From positions 20,596,184 through 20,660,183 of the forward strand of contig CAIIXF020000012.1 in the NCBI GenBank assembly GCA_903813345.2: 64,000 nt of DNA, in the 5' to 3' direction. How positions within the stretch are numbered: position 1 is the first letter of the stretch; each line of letters begins with the position of its first letter. Source of the DNA: Owenia fusiformis. Lineage: Eukaryota > Annelida > Polychaeta > Sabellida > Oweniidae. This document shows, piece by piece, positions 1,603 to 50,600 of this stretch. A program made the position numbers and the translations under genes. Under the pieces are notes generated by a model, which saw only the letters and a list, made by a program, of their open reading frames with translations, was not told the DNA's origin and ran no database searches.

Positions 1603-2100
1603 TCACTTTTCAGCTTGTCTAGGTTTCCAGCCAAACCATTGGACAGATTCATCTGAAATTTTCAGGAATGTTTCTACGTATCAAAGAACTGATTAGTTTT
1701 TGGGCATTCTGGGTAAATTTTAAGGTGGCCATTTTGGATTTTCCGTCCTAAAATCTTCACTTTCAAGACTTGTCTACAGGTTTCCAGCCAAACCATTTGA
1801 CGGATTCATTTGAAATCTTCAGGGATGTTTCTACATATCAAAGTTAACAACGGATTAGTTTTTGGACATTCTGGTTAAATTTTAAGGTGGCCATTTTGGA
1901 GTTTCCGTCCTAAAATCTTCACTTTCAAGACTTGTCTACAGGTTTCCAGCCAAACCATTTGATGGATTCATCTGAAATTTTCAGGGATGTTTCTACGTAT
2001 CAAAGTTAAGAACTGATTAGTATTTGGGCATTCTGGGTAAATTTTAAGGTGGCCATTTAGGATTTTCCGTCCTAAATTCTTCACTGTCACACTGCTGTGT
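1603..2100. repeat. three tandem units related to the 162-bp satellite at 48-50.5 kb
   Basis: GGTTTCCAGCCAAACCATT recurs at 1622, 1779 and 1941 (spacing 157 and 162). Each unit also has TTTTCAGGGATGTTTCTACG, GGGCATTCTGGGTAAATTTT and GGCCATTTTGGATTTTCCGT. The inverse complement of these blocks, in order, forms the 48-50.5 kb array. Confidence 0.75.
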
Positions 2101-29674: not shown

Positions 29675-32600
29675 TCACTCATTTATTTCATATATACATA
29701 CTACAGCATTCTATAAATATTTTTTGTGTTTACAATTGACGGGCTAAAGGTTGTCGCCAACATAAGTTATATATCAAGAAGTAATACAAAAAGCTTATTC
29801 TTATGATGCTTTATCTACAAAACAAGTTCTTATGATCTTTTTATCTACCAAATTTACTGTTTTTTTTTTTTTATTGATCCAGTATTATTTATGGATACTG
29901 TGCTTGTTACATGTATTTCATATGTAGTTGTATGCATCTATGGAATAACCTCATTCATACATCCCTCATTCATACATTCATTCACTCATTCAATCATCTT
30001 TTCGTTCGTTACACATTTTACAATATGTTAAATATGATCTTTGGTTACATATCTATTTATTTTTATTACTGTTACACATAATTTTTTATTATGTCAATGG
30101 AAAATATAAAGTTAATACAAAAATAAAAACAATACATATTCTTATAACTTTTCATAAATGACTGCTAATTCATCATTCTTATTAAAAAAAAAAAAATTTT
30201 TTAATAAGAACGCTACAATATTTGCAATCTACTCTAACTTGCCTTTCATTTGAGTATAATAAAGCTATACTTCAAAAACATCTCAAAATTAACGCAAATT
30301 CCAGTTTTTTCCAATCCCCCATTTAAGGCCCCTGGGGGTCAGGGTGAAAAACCCAGGATATATGTGAAATAGATAGATGTAGTTAATATACTACCAAAAT
30401 TTCAAATAAAAATATTTATTATTTTGGTTTAAAATGAAAAACATAAGATTTTTGCAAAAAATTCCCGCCATTTTTAAACTGGCAGCCATCTTGAAACGTA
30501 AAACTATTCACCAATATACATCTTTCTACCAAATATGAAGAAAATCTGTCAACTAGTATTCGAGTTATCTTCCGGACAGACGGACAGACTGACTGACTGA
30601 CGGACGGACGGACGGACGGACGGAGGGCTTCACTATATCCCTACAGAACTTCGTTCGCATATGGATATTACTAAAACCACTGCAGCATTAAGTGTAAAGG
30701 TTTTTATTGAGGAAAATACCGGATTTATATTGCGTAAATAGAGGTTATTTAATGGGAGGTTTTTGATACAGGGTATATCTGAGGGAAATACAATATATTT
30801 ACCTGAGGGACCGTAGGGGCCGAGGGTTGATATATTGTATTTACCGAGGGATATACCCTGTATCAAAAATCAAGCATTCAATAACTGATTTATCCTATAC
30901 TTAGTAGATTATGAGAATAAAATATGCATTGAATGTTAGGGAATCCTAATGTAGTAATTACAAATGATAATTACAATCAAAACATGAATATTTTATCTCA
31001 ATTTTAAGTCCTCAACAATTTTTGTTTTTTAAACTCAACAGCTTTTAAGATAGTGTATGAAATTAATATTTATCAAAAGTATATCCCGGGAATTCAAAAA
31101 AGCACTGAAAGAAATTCCCGGGGATTACTGATGAGCGGGTGATATATATATCTCCCGCTCACCTCAGATATCAATTATATTCCCGCATGTTATTTACCTA
31201 TAACACTACTAAGTATGGGATAAGTACATGTAGTATGGTTAGGGCAACCAGTATAATGGCTACAGACCTTACAGTAGTTAGTTCCAATTCAATTCTGATT
31301 AGATCAGATGATTGCTTTTAAAGGAGGATAAACCGTTTTTTAAATCAAAGACGCCCTCCCCAGATACTTTTATAAAACATTTAACAGAATTTCCAAATTG
31401 AATACACTTACAGCAGTAGCTGTTAATAGCCCTACAACTTGTGGTCCCAGGAACCCTGGTATAGTAGCTGCACTGTTTGTTATGCCCATCAATGTACCTA
31501 AATGAAAAAAACAACAATACGTCCATGAATAGTTTTTGAATCTTATTTTAACATCAAACTATAAAAACTGAAAGTGAAAAGAAAATTTTGAAACTGGTGG
31601 CTTTTTGAAAATAGGCTTTCAAAAATTTAAACCACCACTTTTTCTGATAATAAATGAAAATAATGTGTGTTTTAGTAAATAAATTCACAATTCATTAAGC
31701 CTATCACCAATCAGTGATATGCTATTGCATTATATTTTTTAGTGATAGAACAATAAAATAGAGCTTCATGATAACAGATGGGAGTGATGGAGTTAGGGTT
31801 GAGGTAAACTAATGGAGCTTATTCCCCCTCTTTATCTACTAATAGTAAGAGTTTGCAGCCTAAGCATGGAATATATAATTTATATTATGGTGAGTTTTGG
31901 ATATAGGATATAGTTTATTATATTTATAGGGTATCTAACTTTAAATACATTTATAACCAGCAGAAAAAGTATAAGATCATGTTGAAGTAACTGAAAATGT
32001 GTGTACATGTACATGAAAGTAGTTTTCACCTGCATTGTCGGGAGCAATATCTAAGTGATTAACGTTATATCCTGACATTGTGAATCCCTGAATGCCCACA
32101 GCCAGCGTAAGCACAATCACAGCAAGTGTGCGGTCACACCCTATATAACCCATTATGACTAATAGTGCAGCAGGTATAACAAGACCTGCAAATAAAAGGA
32201 GATCATTTATAGAAGGGAAATAGACACAAGAGGAGGGAGATGTGACACTAGTTTTCATCTAATAATAATGACAGTGCAAGGGGAATAATCAGACCTGAAA
32301 ATACAACAAGGTAATTCATACTTGGGGAAAAAGAAGGGCAATGGAGGGGGAAGTGACACTGCTGGTTTTCATCTGAAAGTTTATATTTGGAAACATAAGG
32401 ACATGGGAGGGGTTTGCCATGCATGCAGAATGTGGATCTTATTCCAATTGAAAGGAATAATGTCTCCATTATTACAGAAATGTATAAAGCAAGTCAAAAT
32501 CATGTTCCATCTGATCCATTTTTTACAAAAAATGCAGACATAATTGTTTTTTTTTCAATATGAAATTAATAATAATGAAGACAATGTTCCTTCAATAATC

Positions 32601-35600
32601 AGTTGTGTTGTATCTGTACCTGCAAAATCAGGTGCAATATCAAGATGGTTAATGGCATACGCACATTGCACAGCACCACCCAGCCCAATACCTAATGTTA
32701 TCAATACAAGGGCATGGATGCGATCACAACCTATATAGCCTACTGCCACTAAGGCTACAGCTGGACAAATAAAACCTGGATTAAAAATATACAACATCAG
32801 GAAAAATAAAGGCATGGTCAAGAAGATATATTTCAATTGTGAAAATAGTTCAATAAATGTACGAGCCCCCTTCATCATTGTTTTGTTAACCCGAAGCTCA
32901 TTGCTAATGACATAACCACCATTAGCTCATTAGTAATTGGCCTTTGCACTGGGGATGAACTGGAAACGAGGGAGGTTTTGCCTCGTATCAAAATGGCGGC
33001 GCGTGAAAAAATTTCATTCGGTAAGATTTTTGTTTTTTACAATTTTCGTGCTTTTATCCTTCAAATTAAAACTTAATATTTGGCAAGTAAATAGTTCATA
33101 AGTTCCGGTTTTATAATATGATTACAAATTAGAAATCAATACTGGCATTGCTGAGATATTTACATATCAATTCTCTCACTTAGGAAACGAGGCATGTTTC
33201 TCAAGGAAACGAGGCAGCTATATAGCATTCTTAAGAATGAAACGAGGCAACCATATTTAATTAAAAATGTTTTGTTTTTATTACAGAACGGGGCCTACAA
33301 AAAGAAGCGTCCCTGTTCAAATGACATTTCTGTAACACAGGAAACGACAACATTGCTGATATTGTATTCCATATGATGCAACAGCATGATGGTAATCTCT
33401 CTGTACGGAAACGAACGTTAGATGAGAAAACAGGTTCATTTGTATACACGTCTCATCATTTTGGCGTATTTCATTAAAGAATACAAACAGTAAAATCCAA
33501 TGTACACCAATGAGACAATGCCAGTGTGCTCCTTGACTTTGCTATTTTTGTAATATAGGCGAGTCATTTAATTATTACCATGGTCATTCGTTTTTTATCG
33601 TATCTGGAATTATATTCTATCAAATATAGCCATCTCGAGCAACAACAATGCCCCATTTGCGTACGATTAGTAGGGAGGTTTAAAGACACATGTTTTAAAG
33701 AGAAGTGTACGTAAACGTGTCAAATTGCAATCTTCAGAGAACTAGTTCTTGTCTTCAACGTCTTTATTTGCATGAATGATTACAAAGGTATCAGTTAAAC
33801 TGTTTTAATTGGGTCTTTGTACAAGTCAATCCAGAACGGAACTATAGATCCCAGGGGTCATTTCACGTTTACGTTCGCCATTTCTAAAATACGTGTAGCT
33901 TAAGCTCCCTATTAAAATAGCACTTCTTTGAACGAGATTTTTCTTATTTGAGAGAACATTTTGATGATATATGCGCTACCATTGATAGCTCGGATAGCTG
34001 GCTCGTTTATTGGAATTGACACTCAAAGCAATGCTATTTAACGTTTTCGAAATATTTAAAAAATAAAACAGTATAACTCCATAGCATAAATTTTAAGCTG
34101 CAGCAAAGAATGAATCGAGTGAAGTGCTTTGCTTGCATTCGACGCTCGCCAGAACACCCCCCCCGCTACCCAATCAAAAGCTGGCTACACAACCCTGTAA
34201 TACGCATGGCCCACATTTGAATTCAACCACGGAAATTAAGCTTAGATTAGATCAATATTCCTATATAAAATAGACACTCACTTGGTTTATTTCTTGTTTT
34301 ATATCCAAAGAACATGTGTAAGTTTCTATAGATATATTATATATAACATATTTTTGGCATGGGGAGACGGCTATCTATCCATAAAAGGGTTGCGTAATTG
34401 TATACAAAAGAAACGATTACGTAACCATTGTATAATATTACGCAATAATATTACGCAATGAAAGCGCAAAATCCTGATAATGCAAACTTATATTATCGAA
34501 ATCTTTGGGACAAGACTGAAGAACATGTTGTCTTGCTCTGAAAGATAAATGACCAGTGTAGCGCTTTATGAACAATATGGTTATTCTTTTTAACTCTTAC
34601 ATATATAATCATGTATATCGTGTAAAACGTAATCGGTCGTATGTGACCAGAACGGTGGAAATAAGATCATTAAATGTAGACACTATCACAGAAAGAATAG
34701 TTGCCTCGTTGCAAGTCAAACATTGCCTCGTTTCATTGTTACAAAATGTAGACAGGTGCCTCGTTTCCTAAGTGAGAGAATTGAAATGTAAATATCTCAG
34801 CAATGTCTGTATTGATTTCTAATTTGCAATCATATTATAAAACCGGAACTTATAAACTATTTACTTGCCAAATATCAAGTTTGAATTTGAAGGATAAAAG
34901 CACGAAAATTGTAAAAAACAAAAATCTTACCGAATGCAATTTTTTCACGCGCCGCCATTTTGATACGAGGCAAAACCTCCCTCGTTTCCAGTTCATCCCC
35001 AGTGCTTTGGACTATTAACCTCTGAAGGTGACCAATCATTTCACCTTTTACCTTGGCCTTTTGACCAATCATAGAGCACTGTACAGCACACAATCACATA
35101 CTATTGAGAACTGTCTATGTGAGATAACAGACTCCTAATTGAATAAACAAGTTCAACATTTTGTTGGTTATAGAGTATGAGAAGAGTATCTTTAATAGAG
35201 TACAGTATACCTAATGTATTGAATATTTTCCTCACACTAGTAGTGGAGAGTATGTGTGCTCTTAGGTAATCTGCTATTTGACCTCCTACATTGATGAGTA
35301 TCCACATTACAAGGTAGGGAATGGCAGACAGAAATCCATTCTAAAAGAAAAAGGAGTTAAAGACATATTTTTATTCAATAATACTATTGTTTTCCCAGGG
35401 AAATAAAATTGTATTGTCCCTCTTAAAATCGTATTCACTCAAAAAACATATTCACCCAGGAAATATCGTATTGTGATCATATTCACCTGAGAAAAATCAT
35501 ATTGGGATTGTATTCACTCAAAAATCAAATTAATGAAAAAACAATCAATGGTCACTATGCTTGGGACTACAGTACACATTGCATTTCATTACGTATATCA

Positions 35601-38600: not shown

Positions 38601-41600
38601 TGTGACACCTATATTCAGAGATAAGTAACACAATGCTGTGGCATATACAAATATAATAAAATCCTTATTTAATGCAATGTAGATTGAATACTTCTTTTTA
38701 TGGGATTTTTAAATGCAACATGGATGGATACTCTGGTTTAGTAGGGCAAAACAAAAGAGGTCACAAATACTTCAGTCTATAAAAACATACACTCGTATTG
38801 CTACGAAACAAGCTGATACATTGAACAATTGTGGGATCCTAATATATGCATTACCAAAGCAATATGATGTGATGCCTTCCAGAGTCTACTTGGAAACAGC
38901 ACTAAAACTATGGTTCCGGTCTGCTGATTACAGTTCATTAATACAGTCATTATTACATCTTATTTCATATTCTAATTTTTCATTTTATGTTGATCATCTA
39001 CATACCAAACACATAGAAGACAGAAGGCCAGCCTCCAGCAAAGCCATATTTACATAACAGTCCTGATATAGGCAAAGAAACCACTGTCCCAAATTGAGAA
39101 CCTACAAAATAATGTGTCGTAAGATTACATAGACATACATGTTTGTACATGACATAATGATCATTTCATGAACCATAAAATCGCTGAAATAAGTTTATCA
39201 CTTTGTAAATCACACAGAAAATATCTTGAATATCACAACCGGGTAGTAAAATTATTGAATTAAAGAGAAGGATTCTATAATATTCTGTGGCTTGGGGATG
39301 ACATTTGAATGTACTCCCATGTTTTACTGACCTGCATATGAGAAAACACAAAGTTTACTGCGCTCTAATCTAGGAGCCCACTTTGCCCATATTGCATGCA
39401 TGGCTGGGAATGTAACACCCTGTAAGTATACACATCAATAATGTAACACCCTGTAAGTATACACATCAATAATGTAACACCCTGTAAGTACACATCAATA
39501 ATGTAACACCCTGTAGGTATAAACATCAATAATGTAACACCCTGTAAGTATACACATCAATAATGTAACACCCTGTAAGTATACACATCAATAATGTATC
39601 ACCCTGTAAGTATACATAATACTATCAATAATGTAACACCCTGTAAGTATACATAATACTATCAATAATAGAACACCCTGTAAGTAAGCAACACCATATT
39701 AATGTAACACGATGTAAACAAACACAAACTCCCCAGGGGGCCATTCTTGGTACAAATGCAACTTATGATCGTCGTAACTTACTACTCGACTCGTCGTAAG
39801 TTTAAATATTTACGACCGAGTTACGACAGGTCGTAAGTTACGACCACAATGTTTTTGGAAACCGTTGTATCTTAGTTGTAAATAACCATACTTACGACCG
39901 ACCGTAAGAAGTAAAGTTATATCACATGATGATCATGTGATTCATCGAAATCAAAATTGCCAGCATAGTATTCAAAAGTCATGAGTATAATGATTCCCGT
40001 TCCAACCAACGTGAAATTGCAAATCTCCCGTTCTAAACACAGCTCTGTAGCTGATCGGGTATCTGAAGTAGACTAAGTAGCGCTTGTTTTGCATGCCCGC
40101 TATATACATTACTGTATTGATTCACTGGCTTTGTGTTACACGGTTGTGAAAAATATCGCTAGCTTAAACTCTCTATTCACTTTATTAAAAACACGAGATT
40201 CGAAACCGTAAGAATACTTTGGGGCAGACGGCGGGACACGGCATGTGTACTCAATGTGCAAGATATTCAAATCACACCAAATACAAGAATTAATAAAAAA
40301 AATTGATGCCCAAAATTAGCCACATAATGGCTAATGGTGAGTTCACATGGCTAATGTGACAGCTACTTTACCAAGTTACGAACAGAGTGAAGATAAGACA
40401 CCCCTAACCCTGGTCGTAACTTTACATTGAAGTTACAACAATGTATGAAAAATGCATTTTTACCAGTCGTAGTAAGAGAACAATGACTTACGACCAGTCG
40501 TTAGTTATGAACGTTTCCAAGAATGGCCCCCATAGTAGCAATTCTCCATTGAACAAAACAAATTTTATCAAATCACTCATATTTAGAACATGAAAAATTA
40601 GATTTTTTCATACAAAATGGTGGCCATTTTTAATTCAGTGGCCAACAAAGTTTTGCTATCAAAAATGACAGCCATTTTAAATTTCGATGAATGCTAGATG
40701 CATAAAAGTAGAGAAACTAGAAAACAGCTACATGTACTCAAAAGAGTAACAGTTGTCAGACAAACAGCTGGAGCGCTTTTCCCTTGAACTCAATTGGATG
40801 GATAATTATTCAGTTTTTTTCTAAAAATGTCTCAAACACTTTTTAAAGTTGTGACAAATAATATTTGGATGATTAAACAATATCTTCTTTGCACGCAACC
40901 TGTGGCAATTACCTCTCCAATCCCCTCAATTATTCTGACAGCTACTAACACAGGGACACTCCAACGAGCTGCTACTGGAGTGAGGAGGGTGAGAGCAGAC
41001 GTACATAGGACCCCAAAGCCAAATAGCTTCTTCCCTATCAAAATAATAAAATGTAAGCTTTTTATTTTAGATAATTTTGTATGCTGAACCATCTAGTGGT
41101 GAGGAAAGAAAACCACCAAGCTTTTGAACGAATATAAATGAAGCTTTTGAAAATGTAAATACATGTAATAGCAATGAAAAATTACACATTTACAGGAACT
41201 GTCTGTGATAGTCTAATAATCGTAAAGATTAAAAATTTATTGTTTCAAATTGATGCCTTTAAGTTTGAATTTATTTTAAAATATATTTCAAACATATTTT
41301 TATTACCCCTACCCCCAAAAATGCAAGTGACAATCAAAATTATAGCAATATGAAAAACATGGTACCCCTTGACCCAATAAAGTCAAGGATTTGATAATCC
41401 TGACAAGAAAACTATACACCAATTCATAATTTGTACATTCTATAAATGATAAACAGTTGTCAAATTACTATTAAATCAACACTCATGTTTATTCATCATT
41501 TTTATTATCATTTTACAATAACAATCATTTGTTGATATCAAGAAATAATTTTACTCTCAATACTATCACTAATTTTGATTGAATTTATAGACTTCTCACA

Positions 41601-44600
41601 CAAGACACACATGACATAGTACATCCATTCCATAGATAGCACTGTCAATATTCATGATTGTACATGAAGTTCTTTTCAAATGTAATACAATACATATTAT
41701 AGTGCTACGGCCAAGGCGATTTGTGTCCAAAACACCTAGATTCAATTTGACTTTAGATTCTTGTAGGGGACCCCAAGGCATGTAAAAAAAAGTTTGTGAA
41801 CCCTTGCAAAGTAGGCTCAAAAGTGCTGAGTCAGCAAATTTTATTATTTTCGAGTCAGAGTTTGACCATATGCTTGAAACTATTTAATATCTCATTTCAG
41901 GATGTTGCAATTATAATGAAACATTGTCAATATATCAATAAGGCATGTATGAAGAATTCCTGAAAGTTTGGGTCTTCACCAACAAAATTTTGTGGAGATA
42001 TGGGATAATTTGTCCCTAAAAGTACATCATTTCTCTTCAAAATTTCTTAATCAGTCGATAGTTAATCAGTCGTTTAAAAAACAGTAAGGGCCTATGGTAC
42101 ATAAAACCTGATTTAAAACTTCACTGATGATGTTAGCAAATATTTCTTGAATAAGTTTCAATAAAAAGTACAAGTATCTATTTTTTCTGATTTTTCTCTT
42201 TACCTTCCCCTAAAAATTCAAGAAAGGGGGCGTGGCACATAACACTTCAGTTGTTGAACTTGTTGCTAGGGTCAAATAGAAAATGTGTATCATTATAGCA
42301 AAAAGTGTTATTCTAAATAAATCTTAACACTATTTGTGACATCATGATATGCTAAACATATTCATTATCTACCATTTTATATTTTTTACAGCTTATCATT
42401 GCCATACCCCATAAAACTGTTTAGGGTATGTGTGGTCAGCAATAGGAAATACATGTATGTGTACTTTTCACATTAACATTTTTCAAAATTGTATTTCAGA
42501 TGCCATTCTATTCTTATGTTGTTCATGCAGTTATGGTATGTTAAGAATGAATTATGATGATAATATGTTATATTACACTCCCCATCATAAGTTTGTCCCC
42601 CTTTGAATCACTTATTAAAGTTTTTCATGCTGTTTGGCAATTTTAAACAAGACATCAAGCTTTTGGAATAAAGCAATAAGGAACAAAATCAAGGTTCAAA
42701 CATTGACAGACCTTAATATGTAATCATATGAAAACTTGCAGTTGCCAACCTTATGGAGGGGGTGTATAATAAGTATTATATGTGTCATAAATTGTTTAGT
42801 TGTAGAAACCTGAAGCAAAAGGAAATAATAGTGCTATACATTCTCTCAAAGACAGTGATCAATTCCTTGGCATTGGGTTTGTCTACATTACTTATATGAT
42901 ATGTGACATAAGTGAGTTTGGTCCTAAGGCCAACATATTCCAATGGTGCAGAATCCCACTCGACCCATCAAGTCCCACCATGCCATATCGAGTCCCACAA
43001 TGTCCCAAGAGACCTTGTTAACTTTGCCCCATTGAGTCTCATCGAGTCCCTCCATATCCCATTGAGTCCCACGGAAATGATGTAATTTTGTTTAGAAGGT
43101 TTTGTCAAGGTCATTTTGATCCCATAGTTAGCTCAATGAAGTCCAATGGATTTCCATGAGGTCCCACCCAATGTCAAAATCAATGGAGGTCCCACCGTGC
43201 CGTATTGGTATATGTTAGGCTTTAGCAAAGTAACTTCCTTTGTTTACATTCATCAAATCGTTAAAAAGGAAAAGTTGTCAAAACTTTGTAAGAGCGTGAT
43301 CATTTGGACCGATTTCACTTGTCTGGTACGGATATTTTAGTTTTACACGAACTGAGGGGGCTAGTGCCATTCATAATATCTTCAAATAAACTTTTTCTCC
43401 TGCATTCAATTCATGACCACATGTTACTACAGAATCCATAGGATCCTCGGGGATGAGCCATTCCATGGTCACTTGGCCTTGGATTGAATGTCTTTAACTG
43501 GTGAATAGGTTTATTATGAAGGGGTTTCCATGATAACATATGGTCTTGGAAAAACAGATTCCAAAAGTCAATGGGAGTGACAAAACGTAAGTAATGCTTA
43601 ATAACTGAGTGTGGATCGGTTGATCCCAAGATATTATCAGTCAGTAGCTTATTACGTACTATAACAGTTAGCAGGGAACAAAAACTGGAACTTACTGTTA
43701 CGCGGTAATCACGATACAAAATATGTCATATTCCGCGATGAATATGGCATATTCACTTGCGGTGTATGACAGATTCACCTGCGGTATATGGCATACACAC
43801 TAACCAATGAGAATGTGATTGTATTGTATTGTATTTTGTTTTACCACCAATGAAGGTGAGCCATACCTCTTGGGTATGTCCCGTATATATACGGTCGTAA
43901 TTTACGTATTAATTAAACATGGACGATAGACCCAGAAACCCCTCCTTGAAGGAGCCCTGTGTTCTTTTATGTGCATTTATACATAGACATACAAGTACAC
44001 ACCACAGCCTTTTGTACGAGTTGCGGACCACTCAGTCAAAACCCCTGAAGTACTTCACGCAAACAGGCAAATTTAGTCTTGCCTGAACCGGGGATCGAAT
44101 CCGGGACCTATTGCGTAAGAGGTACCTGTGCTACCGCTGAGCTACACGGGTGGACTGATATAGAGTACGCAATTGTCAATTGCTTAGATTGAACGAACAA
44201 GTTAAACATTATAAATTATTATAATGATTACTGAATCAACAGCACTGTATGTCAAATATATTAACTTAGAATATATTAACTTAGCAGAAGTATCAGTCAC
44301 CAATCTCGTGCAATAAACTTACTCAATCAATCCAGGATTGATACATTAGTACTGGACGCACTAACTATATTGGTAATCCAGTGTAGTTTTACATTAAGAG
44401 TCGATTCTCGCAACCAATCAAATCAAGGCTTTCTGTATCACGTTTTCACCTGCGGTATATGTCATATTCACCTGCGGTATATGGCATATTCCGCAAGTGA
44501 GCATGACATATTCCGCAGGTGAGTATGGGGTATTCACTGAAATCAATGTATCGCATATTCACTGCGGAATATCGCATACTCACCTGCAGAATATGCCATA

Positions 44601-47600
44601 CACCGCAGGTGAGTATGGCATATTCACCCGTATCACAAATACTGCGCAACCATGAATGTATGCCATATACCGCGTAACACTTACTGTCGATCATGCTGCT
44701 CCATGAATAATGAGTCATCTGTACAAAGCATAATCAAGGTGGTAGAAGCAAATGAGAACCCATTTAGATTGAAAATTCTGATAATTAGCCATCTTGATTC
44801 TCAAGGTTTCAATTGCTCCAACTGTATAATAACATGGAAGTCGAAGATGATAATAAGCTCCATTAAATACTTACTATGGAGGTGATGACTAATGACATCA
44901 GAAAGAGTTTATCATAATTATCAAGAATACTTCACTGGTTGAAAGAGATGCTAAAAGATAAAGTGAAAGTGAAATTGATTCCAATATTGAGATTTTAAAA
45001 ATCTATTTCTCTGTTTTGGTGCATAAATACAAAGGAGGTCACTTTGCTGGGGCTTCTTAACTCTTCTATCTACAGCTAGGGATACAATTGTTTCCTGTAC
45101 AAAGTACAATCAATTCCCTTGATACTATGTGAAGTATAACTATTGGGTGCTAGACTAGCAGTGAAACATTTTCTCCAATTCCTTAGGGACAATAGGGGCG
45201 TAGCCAGCTTTGGTTCAGTGGGGGTTTGATCGCCAAAATTTTTTCGGTTTTCAGTCAGGGGGATGCGACTGTGGCATAAAAAAGCTAAAAATTAAGATCT
45301 ATCTTGAATTTTACATATCTTGATTCAACTTCCTTCAAAATAGGGCTAGAAGCTTAAAATAAAAAGCATTATAAAACTCTTCTTCTATCTCATGGTTATA
45401 TTTTTATTGGTTATTGGGGGGGGGGGGGGGGGGGGGGGTGCGATCCTATTGCACCCCCTGGCTAAGCCTATGGACAAGATGTATTATTTTGATATAAAAA
45501 AAACATACACATCTTGTTATGTTCTACAGACTACAACTAAACAATTTATGACATATATACAATACGAAGTGTGCAAACTGCAACCAGGCTCCGAGAAACT
45601 CTGGCTCTTAATCATTTGGTGTTACAATTTGTTATTATATAGCTAATTATTTGCAGCAACAATAGGAGTCTTGTTGCAGTTTACATGGACCCTATACTAT
45701 AAGCATGTACACCCCCTCCATAAGTTTGGCAACTGGAAGTTATTATATGATAGCATATCAAAGTCTGTCAATGTTTAAAACTTGATTATGTTCCTTATTA
45801 CCGTATTTCAGATACTTCGATTTCATATGCCATAAATAAACAGGCTTTAATAAGTGATTCAAAGGGGTTTGAGTTGCCAAACTTATGATGCTAAGTGCTA
45901 TCATTCATAAACATAAACCATAACTACATGAACAACATCAGGAAAGAATGGCACCCGAAATACAGTTTTGAAAAATGTTATTAGTTCACATACGTACATG
46001 TATTTCCAATTGCTGACCACACATACCCTAAATGGTTTTATGGTTTATGGCAATGATAAGCTGTAAAAAATATAAAATGATAGATAATGAATATGTTTAG
46101 CATATTATGATGTCACTTATAGTGTTAAGATTTATTTAGAATAATACTTTTTGCTATAATGATACATATTTTCTATTTGACCCTAGCAAAAAGTTCAACA
46201 ACTGAAGTGTTATGTGCCACGCCCCCTTTCTTGAATTTTTGGGGGAATGTAAAAAGAAAAATCAGAAAAAATAGATGCATGCACTTTTTATTGAAACTTA
46301 TGCAAGAAATATTTGCTAACATCACCAGTGTAGTTTTTAATCAGGTTTTATACACCGTAGGCCCTTACTGTTTTTTAAATGACTGATTAACTATCGACTG
46401 ATTAAGAAATTTTGAGGAGAAATGATGTACTTTTAGGGACAAATTATCCCATATCTCTACCAAATTTTGTTGGATAAGACCCAAACTTTCAGGAATTCTT
46501 CATACATGCCTTATTGATATACTAACAATGTTTCATTACAATTGCAACATCCTCAAATGAGATATTAAATATTTTCAAGCATATGGTCAAACTCTGACTC
46601 GAAAATGATAAAATTTGCTGACTCAGCACTTTTGAGCCTGCTTTGCAAGGGTTCACAAACTTTTTTTTACATGCCTTGGGGTCCCCTACAAGAATCTAAA
46701 GTCAAATTGAATCTAGGTGTTTTGGACACAAATCACCTTGGCCGTAGCACTATTACATATTATGGATTATTTAATCTGAAAACATAGGAACAAATCCTAT
46801 GCTAAGGGCTGATGTGAAAAAAAAAATCACTCCACCCTGGTGGGAATCGAACCCACAACCTCTCGATTACATGTCAGGTGCTCTACGCTTGAGCTACAGA
46901 GCCTACTGACTCTTTTACATCAACATTGCATTTATGGCATCACAGCCATGACTTGTACTGATCAAGCCAAAGTCAAGTTGGAGATCAGTCTCCACTCTCC
47001 TCCACAATTTCGCCTGAAAATGATGACCTACTATTATGTTGATTTAAACTTGCTATTGCACAGTAGTATCTCCAGTAATCATTAGGTGAAGGTTTTAAAT
47101 AAGATAAAACTAAGGACAACATCAATCTAATATTTCTACTGACTGAAACTTTTATTCACCAAGTATATGTTAACTACAATACCTTCTAAACTACAGAGCA
47201 TGTATGCTAGAAGTCCTTCAACAATGATATTAATTCCTGCATGTTATGCTGCATACAGAGTCTAGTTATACCAAGGAGTGACAAATCCCGAACATAACAT
47301 TCTTAATAAATCCCTGGTCATTTTCCACATTACAAGTACATGATATAAATAACCAGAGGTGATAGAGTAGTATCGTCTCCTTACTGCACTGGTCATAAAC
47401 AATGGATTTCATCAGCTCTCATTTCTTTCTTGGGACTCTCAGTGTGTTGTCTTGGAATGGTGTCGACTTTGCTGTCCAGTACTTTTCATTAAAAGTCCTC
47501 AGCTCCTGGTAGATTGAGTCTTGGTTTCCTTTTAAGGGTGATATTATTTCTCTTCTGGTGCCTTACCTTTGGAGTTTGGAATTTCATACAAAGAGACATT

Positions 47601-50600
47601 GGATCCCTTAAAATCTGAATTCAATCCTTCAAATGATTTGACTAGAAATACAAAGTGCACACTTGCCCAGTCCCAGAGAGCCTTCCTAGCACCCCAGATG
47701 GCCACCCGATCACAATATAGAACCCAAAGGTGCGATAAAACATAAGCCAATTGCTCAGATATTCAGGCAATTGAGACATCGAGCTACTAAATCTCAAAAT
47801 TCATCTTGTTACCTCCATATCTCTCAGACAGCCATCCCCCTGGAATTTGTGTTAGGATGTAACCATAGAAGAAAGAACCCAGAATCAACCCTTGCTCATT
47901 GCTATTCCAATCAAACTCTCCATCCTAAAATAAATAAAATACTTTTATGGTATATTTGGGATGCAGACAAAATAAAAAACAAGAACACAAATGTGTACAA
48001 AATGTTCCCACCTATGGGTGATCCCGTCAAATGGTTATCCTAAAAATGAGTAGACAAAACTTTACCGACACAATTTGAGGACGGAAAATCCAAAATGGCC
48101 ACCTTAAAATTTACCCAGAATGCCCAAAAATTAGTCAGTTCTAGATTTTCATACTAAGAACCACTCCTGAAAATTTGAAATTGATCCGTCACACAGTTAA
48201 CCAGAAAACATGTAAACAAGACTTTACTGACAAGATTTGAGGACAGAAAATCCAAAATGGCTGCCTTGACATTTATCCAGAATGCCAAAAAACTAATCTG
48301 TTCTAGATATTCATACTAAGAATCATCCCTGAAAATTTCAAATTGATCTACCAAACGGTTCACCTGGAAATGCGTAGACAAGACTTTACAAACAAGATTT
48401 TAGGAGAGAAAATCCAAAATGGCTGCCTTGACATTTACCCAGAATGCCCAAAAACTAATCGGATCTAGATTTTCATACTAAGAATCATCCCTGAAAATTT
48501 GAAATTGATCTACCAAACGGTTCACCTGGAAATGCGTAGACAAGACTTTACAGACAAGATTTTAAGACGGAAAATCCAAAATGGCTGCTTTGACATTTAT
48601 CCAGAATGCCAAAAAACTAATCAGATCTAGATTTTCATACTAAGAATCATCCCTGAAAATTTGAAATTGATCTACCTCACAGTTAACCTGGAAATGCGTA
48701 GACAAGACTTTACAGGCAAGATTTTAGAACAGAAAATCCAAAATGGCTGCCTTGACATTTACCCAAAATGCCAAAAAACTATAATCAGATCTAGATTTTC
48801 ATACTAAGAATCATCCCTGAAAATTTGAAATTGATCTTCAAAACGGTTCACCTAAAAACGTATAGACAAGACTTTACGGGGAAGATTTTAAGACAATAAA
48901 TCCAAAATGGCTGCCTTGACATTTATCTAGAATGCCAAAAAACTAATCAGATCTAGATTTTCATACTAAGAATCATCCCTGAAAATTTCAAATTGATCTA
49001 CCAAACGGTTCACCTTGAAATGCGTAGACAAGACTTTACAGAAAAGATTTTAGGACGGAAAATCCAAAATGGCTGCCTTGACATTTACCCAGAATGCCCA
49101 ACAACTAATCAGATCTAGTTTTTTAGACTAAGAATCATCCCTGAAAATTTGAAATTGATCTACAAAACAGTTCACCTGAAAACGCGTAGACGACTTTACA
49201 GACACGATTTTAGAACAGAAAATCCAAAATGGCTGCCTTGACATTTACCCAAAATGCCAAAAAACTAATCAGATCTAGATTTTCATACTAAGAACCACCC
49301 CTGAAAATTTGAAATTGATCCGTCACACAGTTAACCAGAAAACATGTAAACAAGACTTTACTGACAAGATTTGAGGACAGAAAATCCAAAATGGCTGCCT
49401 TGACATTTATCCAGAATGCCAAAAAACTAATCTGTTCTAGATATTCATACTAAGAATCATCCCTGAAAATTTGAAATTGATCTACCAAACGGTTCACCTG
49501 GAAATGCGTAGACAAGACTTTACAAACAAGATTTTAGGAGAGAAAATCCAAAATGGCTGCCTTGACATTTACCCAGAATGCCCAAAAACTAATCGGATCT
49601 AGATTTTCATACTAAGAATCATCCCTGAAAATTTGAAATTGATCTACCAAATGGTTCACCTGGAAATGCGCAGACAAGACTTTACAGACAAGATTTTAAG
49701 ACGGAAAATCCAAAATGGCTGCTTTGACATTTATCCAGAATGCCAAAAAACTAATCAGATCTAGATTTTCATACTAAGAATCATCCCTGAAAATTTGAAA
49801 TTGATCTACCTAACAGTTAACCTGGAAATGCGTAGACAAGACTTTACAGACAAAATTTTAGAACAGAAAATGCAAAATGGCTGCCTTGACATTTACCCAG
49901 AATGCCAAAAAACTAATCAGATCTAGGTATTCATACTAAGAATCATCCCTGAAAATTTGAATTTGATCTTCCAAACGGTTCACCTAAAAACGTATAGACA
50001 AGACTTAACGGGGAAGATTTTAAGACGATAAATCCAAAATGGCTGCCTTGACATTTATCTAGAATGCCAAAAAACTAATCAGATCTAGATTTTCATACTA
50101 AGAATCATCCCTGAAAATTTGAAATTGATCTACCAAACGGTTCACCTGGAAATGCGTAGACAAGACTTTACAGACAAGATTTTAGCACGGAAAATCCAAA
50201 ATGGCTGCCTTGACATTTACCCAGAATGCCCCAACAACTAATCAGATCACAATTTTCATACTAAGAATCATCCCTGAAAATTTGAAATTGATCTACCAAA
50301 CGGTTCACCTGGAAATGCGTAGACAAGACTTTACAGACAAGATTTTAGGACGGAAAATCCAAAATGGCTGCCTTGACATTTACCCAGAATGCCCAACAAC
50401 TAATCAGATCTAGTTTTTTAGACTAATCATCCCTGAAAATTTGAAATTGATCTACCAAACGGTTCACCTGAAAACGCGTAGACAAGACTTTACAGACACG
50501 ATTTTAGGACGGAAAAATCCAAAATGGCCGACAATAAAAAAGTGATTATGAGTTTTTGCTGATTTCTTTTTACAAAATTATCACATATAACTACTGTTAA

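Follow-up and report, generated by a model that had tools for sequence, protein, structure and literature searches.

Within a window of 64,000 nt (the whole stretch of DNA analysed), which belongs to C12, a large contig of an animal genome of 498 Mb, one exon of an SLC17/sialin-like transporter gene is preceded by a tandem array of boundary copies that provides nine complete and equally good splice acceptors, of which the last alone can yield protein; the choice of a 3′ splice site is here the subject of a natural experiment. The structure is a mirage-type minisatellite, 'mirages' being the name used in amphioxus for tandem minisatellites that duplicate intron/exon boundaries (PMC3087553), and it matches the description of mirages in every structural feature examined. 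It is probably a recent boundary minisatellite that the gene tolerates, with splicing mainly at the exon-proximal acceptor and perhaps a low level of leak to decay. Most likely, copy number varies and the array is either neutral or carries a slight cost.

The host gene lies on the minus strand, from ~53.4 kb to 29 kb of the window. Its 11 joined exons, with either copy of a duplicated exon described below, are all flanked by GT/AG and form a single open frame of ~429 residues that is near full-length compared with human sialin (8dwi; E 2.7e-139 over 418 residues); an additional C-terminal exon was located at ~29.1 kb. A pseudogene as host was ruled out, as all 11 exons are open and have GT/AG flanks, and the gene that carries the nine-acceptor array looks functional. 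The exon adjoining the array (39332..39419, minus strand) is a coding exon of 88 nt with phase 0 at its start and phase 1 at its end; it has the donor CAG|GTCAGT and aligns to human sialin, and the next exon of the gene lies at 39006-39101. Upstream of it, an intron of 1493 nt (39420..40912, minus strand), with the donor GAG|GTAATT, separates it from the preceding exon (40913..41034, minus strand), which encodes ...RIIEGIGE and ends in phase 0. The initial annotation had named 39332-39419 'exon 5'; this is a real exon of an intact gene, but the fourth one in the model, and it becomes the fifth only with another 5′ exon. An acceptor preceding the first modelled exon suggests that one more 5′ exon exists.

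The array was detected by TRF at 39409-39717 (period 31, 7.8 copies, 90% matches, score 401). The unit combines 21 nt of the intron end with 10 nt of the exon start, and the last copy continues into the exon. The exonic portion, GGTGTTACAT, with which the exon opens (10 nt; 39410..39419, minus strand), is repeated upstream in eight further copies that differ from it at no more than one position; TACAGGGTG is present in nine copies in the array, and two or more copies appeared in none of 2000 mononucleotide shuffles. Mapping of the ACTTACAG|GGTGTTACAT acceptors on the minus strand gave nine positions (39678, 39641, 39604, 39573, 39542, 39511, 39482, 39451 and 39420), and the units measure, from the exon outwards, 31, 31, 29, 31, 31, 31, 37 and 37 bp. 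The splice AG is kept in nine of ten units. As in mirages, the tandem unit spans the boundary and adjoins the authentic exon, and its copies retain the splice dinucleotide. The measured lengths bear out the proposed 31-bp unit with 29- and 37-bp variants. Likewise, the nine AG acceptors of near-equal context that had been reported are real by TRF, by acceptor mapping and by the matrix scores given below, with the exon-proximal 39420 counted among them. Of the span of 39332-39715 given to the array, 39332-39419 is the 88-nt exon itself.

The coding consequences were followed by translating the extended exon for each upstream acceptor, with the phase fixed by the preceding exon. All the units are on the minus strand. 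Unit 1 (39420..39450, 31 bp) contains the AG of the authentic, exon-proximal acceptor (39420..39421), which is the sole acceptor of the array with an open frame. A stop is met from unit 2 (39451..39481, 31 bp; AG 39451-39452, +31 nt), unit 3 (39482..39510, 29 bp; AG 39482-39483, +62 nt), unit 4 (39511..39541, 31 bp, with the ACCTACAG variant; AG 39511-39512, +91 nt) and unit 5 (39542..39572, 31 bp; AG 39542-39543, +122 nt), as well as from units 7 (39604..39640, 37 bp; AG 39604-39605, +184 nt) and 8 (39641..39677, 37 bp; AG 39641-39642, +221 nt), each of which also carries an extra GATAG (39622-39623, +202 nt, and 39659-39660, +239 nt, respectively). The frame is kept only from unit 6 (39573..39603, 31 bp; AG 39573-39574, +153 nt) and from the outermost AG (39678-39679, +258 nt), and an in-frame TGA follows in both cases. 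The outermost segment (~39678..39715) also comprises a tenth unit, decayed and now lacking an AG (ACATCGTGTTACAT), which a mobile element adjoins. In total, the ten upstream AGs (eight acceptors plus the two GATAG sites) all meet stops, either in the array or in the exon.

Accordingly, no upstream acceptor of the array leaves an open frame, as a frame-preserving tandem alternative acceptor would. As 31 equals 1 modulo 3, three units are read in all frames, one of which has a TGA (CAT TAT TGA), and for this reason no three-unit read-through of the standard 31-bp unit stays open. This bears directly on the reading put forward in the initial annotation, according to which the competing acceptors provide a graded set of isoforms, with steps of three units restoring the frame. 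Nine acceptors of near-equal context are certainly present, but there is none at +93, the third upstream one being at +91, and those at +153 and +258 run into the TGA, so the claim that three units (93 nt) restore the frame fails. As a source of extended proteins the graded set is refuted by the sequence of this allele, and the reading as a whole has next to no chance of being correct. The array cannot be a source of protein variants and, since it is unable to extend the protein, any use of its upstream acceptors would reduce the productive output. NAGNAG tandem 3′ splice sites resemble it in that several AGs precede one exon and may compete, but their AGs are 3 nt apart and keep the frame, whereas here the spacing is 29-37 nt and no upstream site is productive.

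The choice among the nine acceptors was approached with a position weight matrix (PWM) built from only 25 native acceptors of the same genome, with a scan for YTNAY branch-point candidates and with RNA folding. In the PWM the nine sites scored from 10.3 to 13.9 bits, inside the range of the native acceptors (-0.3 to 16.5), with the authentic one at the low end (10.3) and the outermost one highest (13.9); the two GATAG sites scored -1.0 and 2.0. Branch-point candidates were found in every unit, those for the authentic AG at distances of 15 and 34 nt before it, and further ones precede the array, at 39699 and 39715. Regarding RNA structure, the minimum free energy (MFE) of the whole array was -87.7 kcal/mol (z -2.48 against dinucleotide shuffles), arrays of shuffled units folded equally well in 7-20% of cases, and the mean unpaired probability of the authentic AG (0.24) was like that of the others (0.19-0.32). 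Thus, no feature marking out the authentic acceptor was found by PWM, YTNAY scan or RNA accessibility, and sequence alone leaves the choice of acceptor undecided. Recursive (ratchet) splicing was ruled out by eye, as the junction reads CAG|GGTGTT and not CAG|GT.

An RNA hairpin could in principle hide the upstream AGs and bring the authentic AG closer to a branch point that lies upstream. Neighbouring units do pair, as the MFE and z-score above reflect, but the folding of the shuffled-unit arrays and the pairing of the authentic AG, which is like that of the other AGs, both speak against such a role, which we consider quite improbable.

Splicing normally takes the first AG that follows the branch point, except for AGs closer to it than ~12-15 nt (PMC1431707). 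By this rule, the authentic site would be chosen from a branch point in the final one or two units, and 39678, an unproductive acceptor, from the candidates that precede the array (39699 or 39715). The same rule can be held in favour of a splicing rheostat, in which the upstream acceptors are used appreciably, their transcripts go to nonsense-mediated decay and the number of units sets the expression of the transporter. Eight complete and equally strong upstream acceptors, each with branch-point candidates, and the unproductive outcome of every one of them would fit such a device. Further support comes from the VNTR in intron 18 of human ABCA7, whose 25-bp unit begins at the splice donor and whose length correlated with lower expression, retention of one unit being a frameshift (PMC5954066). 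However, this one-unit retention amounts to ~2% and is independent of VNTR size (PMC5954066), and amphioxus mirages are reported without disturbance of splicing (PMC3087553, PMC3902484), so the rheostat appears unlikely. A stronger version, in which poison acceptors tuned by copy number produce heritable and possibly somatic variation in expression, is more doubtful still. The ABCA7 repeat is comparable to the present array in that a tandem repeat of short units begins at the very splice site, which each unit can thus repeat, and in that use of the next site retains one unit, with a frameshift and a premature stop. It differs in lying on the donor rather than the acceptor side, in its copy number (~12 to 427), in that it acts chiefly by causing the following exon to be skipped and in that its unit is not reported to include exonic bases.

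The tolerated minisatellite that we favour would have arisen when a 31-bp stretch, consisting of 21 nt from the end of an ancient phase-0 intron and 10 nt from the start of the exon, was amplified in tandem, presumably by slippage or unequal exchange, with the outcome of eight further complete 3′ splice sites in the intron. As the gene is intact, we infer that enough transcripts use the authentic site. Most splicing would then rely on a branch point in the final one or two units and end at the exon-proximal acceptor, and it would be through this preference that the gene stays functional, whereas a minor fraction may take upstream acceptors and yield transcripts that are destroyed or truncated. 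Against this explanation stand the facts that no sequence feature favours the authentic site, whose PWM score of 10.3 is at the low end, and that simple scanning from 39699 or 39715 would choose the unproductive 39678.

The origin of the repeat at the exon boundary is supported by comparison with 16 spliced and two intronless matches in paralogous genes of the same genome. The phase-0 intron position was common to all 16 spliced matches examined, at the exact codon, and the sequence GVTFPAMHA at the exon start is conserved in human sialin. In contrast, no tandem copy of the exon start was detected in the 16 paralogous introns or at nine other acceptors of the host gene; one paralog has a lone one-mismatch 10-mer at -337, which is at chance level. 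Among ~72 exon-like matches in 22 loci there was a single boundary-spanning array, and two 2-copy repeats near exons of paralogous genes do not cross the boundary. The old shared intron position and the conserved GVTFPAMHA imply that the exon edge is ancestral and that the repeats derive from it. Therefore, the earlier proposal that the repeat started at the exon boundary, so that a functional acceptor was amplified, is well founded (conserved GVTFPAMHA, 16/16 introns shared, 0/16 with an array), and an intact host gene with an ancestral boundary is a further trait shared with mirages. The unit was not found elsewhere in the 498-Mb assembly by exact and 3-mismatch searches. As it is present only here genome-wide, a dispersed satellite or mobile element was ruled out as its source. 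Two SLC17-like genes (C6:24334010-24335197 and C6:27813667-27814845) lack introns over ~400 residues and have open frames of 580 and 462 codons; they look like retained retrocopies.

Boundary arrays have been proposed as raw material for intron gain, and the present one could be regarded as the first stage of such a process, in which an inner unit becomes a new exon between array-derived introns. The units do carry exon starts with acceptors, a model of this kind exists for amphioxus globins (PMC3087553) and, in the potato RdRp gene, a boundary duplication turned into a new intron (PMC4974935). However, the donors on the sense strand look weak by eye (AGG|GTGTTA, GAT|GTGTAT), and it is the antisense strand that has a good donor motif, GTAAGT, so this is a highly improbable account of the array. 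The potato duplication, like other intron gains by tandem duplication (PMC4974935), shares with it a duplicated piece that extends across an intron-exon boundary and includes the branch site and the acceptor, but there a new intron is spliced, while here ~nine copies are found with no sign of a new intron. As ACTTACAG and CTGTAAGT are reverse complements of each other, the array on the plus strand (39409-39680) doubles as a series of motifs that resemble strong donors, CCT|GTAAGTAT; these antisense motifs would matter if antisense transcripts exist.

The closest counterparts of the array are the amphioxus mirages, which also consist of tandem boundary copies that end at the authentic boundary, many of them keeping the splice signal. 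In BflGb6 the intron 3′ end and the 5′ part of the exon are duplicated, as here, and the globin BflGb9 is also a mirage gene. Splicing is reported to be normal for the mirages of Adh3, globins, TnC and PGBD5 (PMC3087553, PMC3902484), the second of these giving undisturbed splicing for Adh, troponin C and PGBD5 (PMC3902484), and the units of the Adh3 mirages range from 10 to 72 bp, which brackets the 31 bp found here. The edge units of mirage clusters are the most diverged, which here applies to the outermost unit. The differences are that the gene is another one, that the genome is probably not that of a lancelet and that length polymorphism and regular splicing are documented for the amphioxus cases, whereas the present array was read from one assembly.

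Regarding the lineage, the annelid haemoglobin linker domain Eryth_link_C was detected above the Pfam cut-off in three places on one contig, which would point to an annelid. GFP genes are frequent in lancelets, and a search for this family in the genome, by a method that does not establish absence, found none. If the genome is that of an annelid, the array would be a mirage outside lancelets; no report of such a mirage was found in the literature searched, which is weak evidence of novelty. The array belongs to a known type of structure, here in a new gene and probably in a new phylum, and it suggests that mirage minisatellites, described from lancelets, occur in other animals too.

Several other repeats were observed in the host gene and elsewhere in the window. 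A 156-nt exon encoding the GYIGCDR...NHLDIAP region is present in two copies (32620-32775 and 32030-32185, minus strand), both of phase 1-1, with good splice sites and 53% protein identity, which makes them candidates for mutually exclusive exons; the sequence between the two includes the remnant of a third copy, truncated but with an acceptor, near 32260-32294, and no comparable pair was seen in other SLC17 genes of the genome. The intron with the array also contains, immediately next to it, an element with inverted termini (39736-40532; GGGGGCCATTCTTGG ... CCAAGAATGGCCCCC). Copies elsewhere in the genome, in both orientations, fall into different sets for its middle (~39940-40177) and for its outer parts, so that one element seems to be nested in another. 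The first intron of the modelled gene contains a 162-bp satellite in ~15 copies (48044-50528), the reverse complement of which apparently forms the unit of a 3-copy array close to the start of the window (1603-2089). Finally, the conceptual translations of 41596-42323 and 46129-46787 are near-identical on opposite strands, which suggests that the second intron of the model contains a long inverted repeat.
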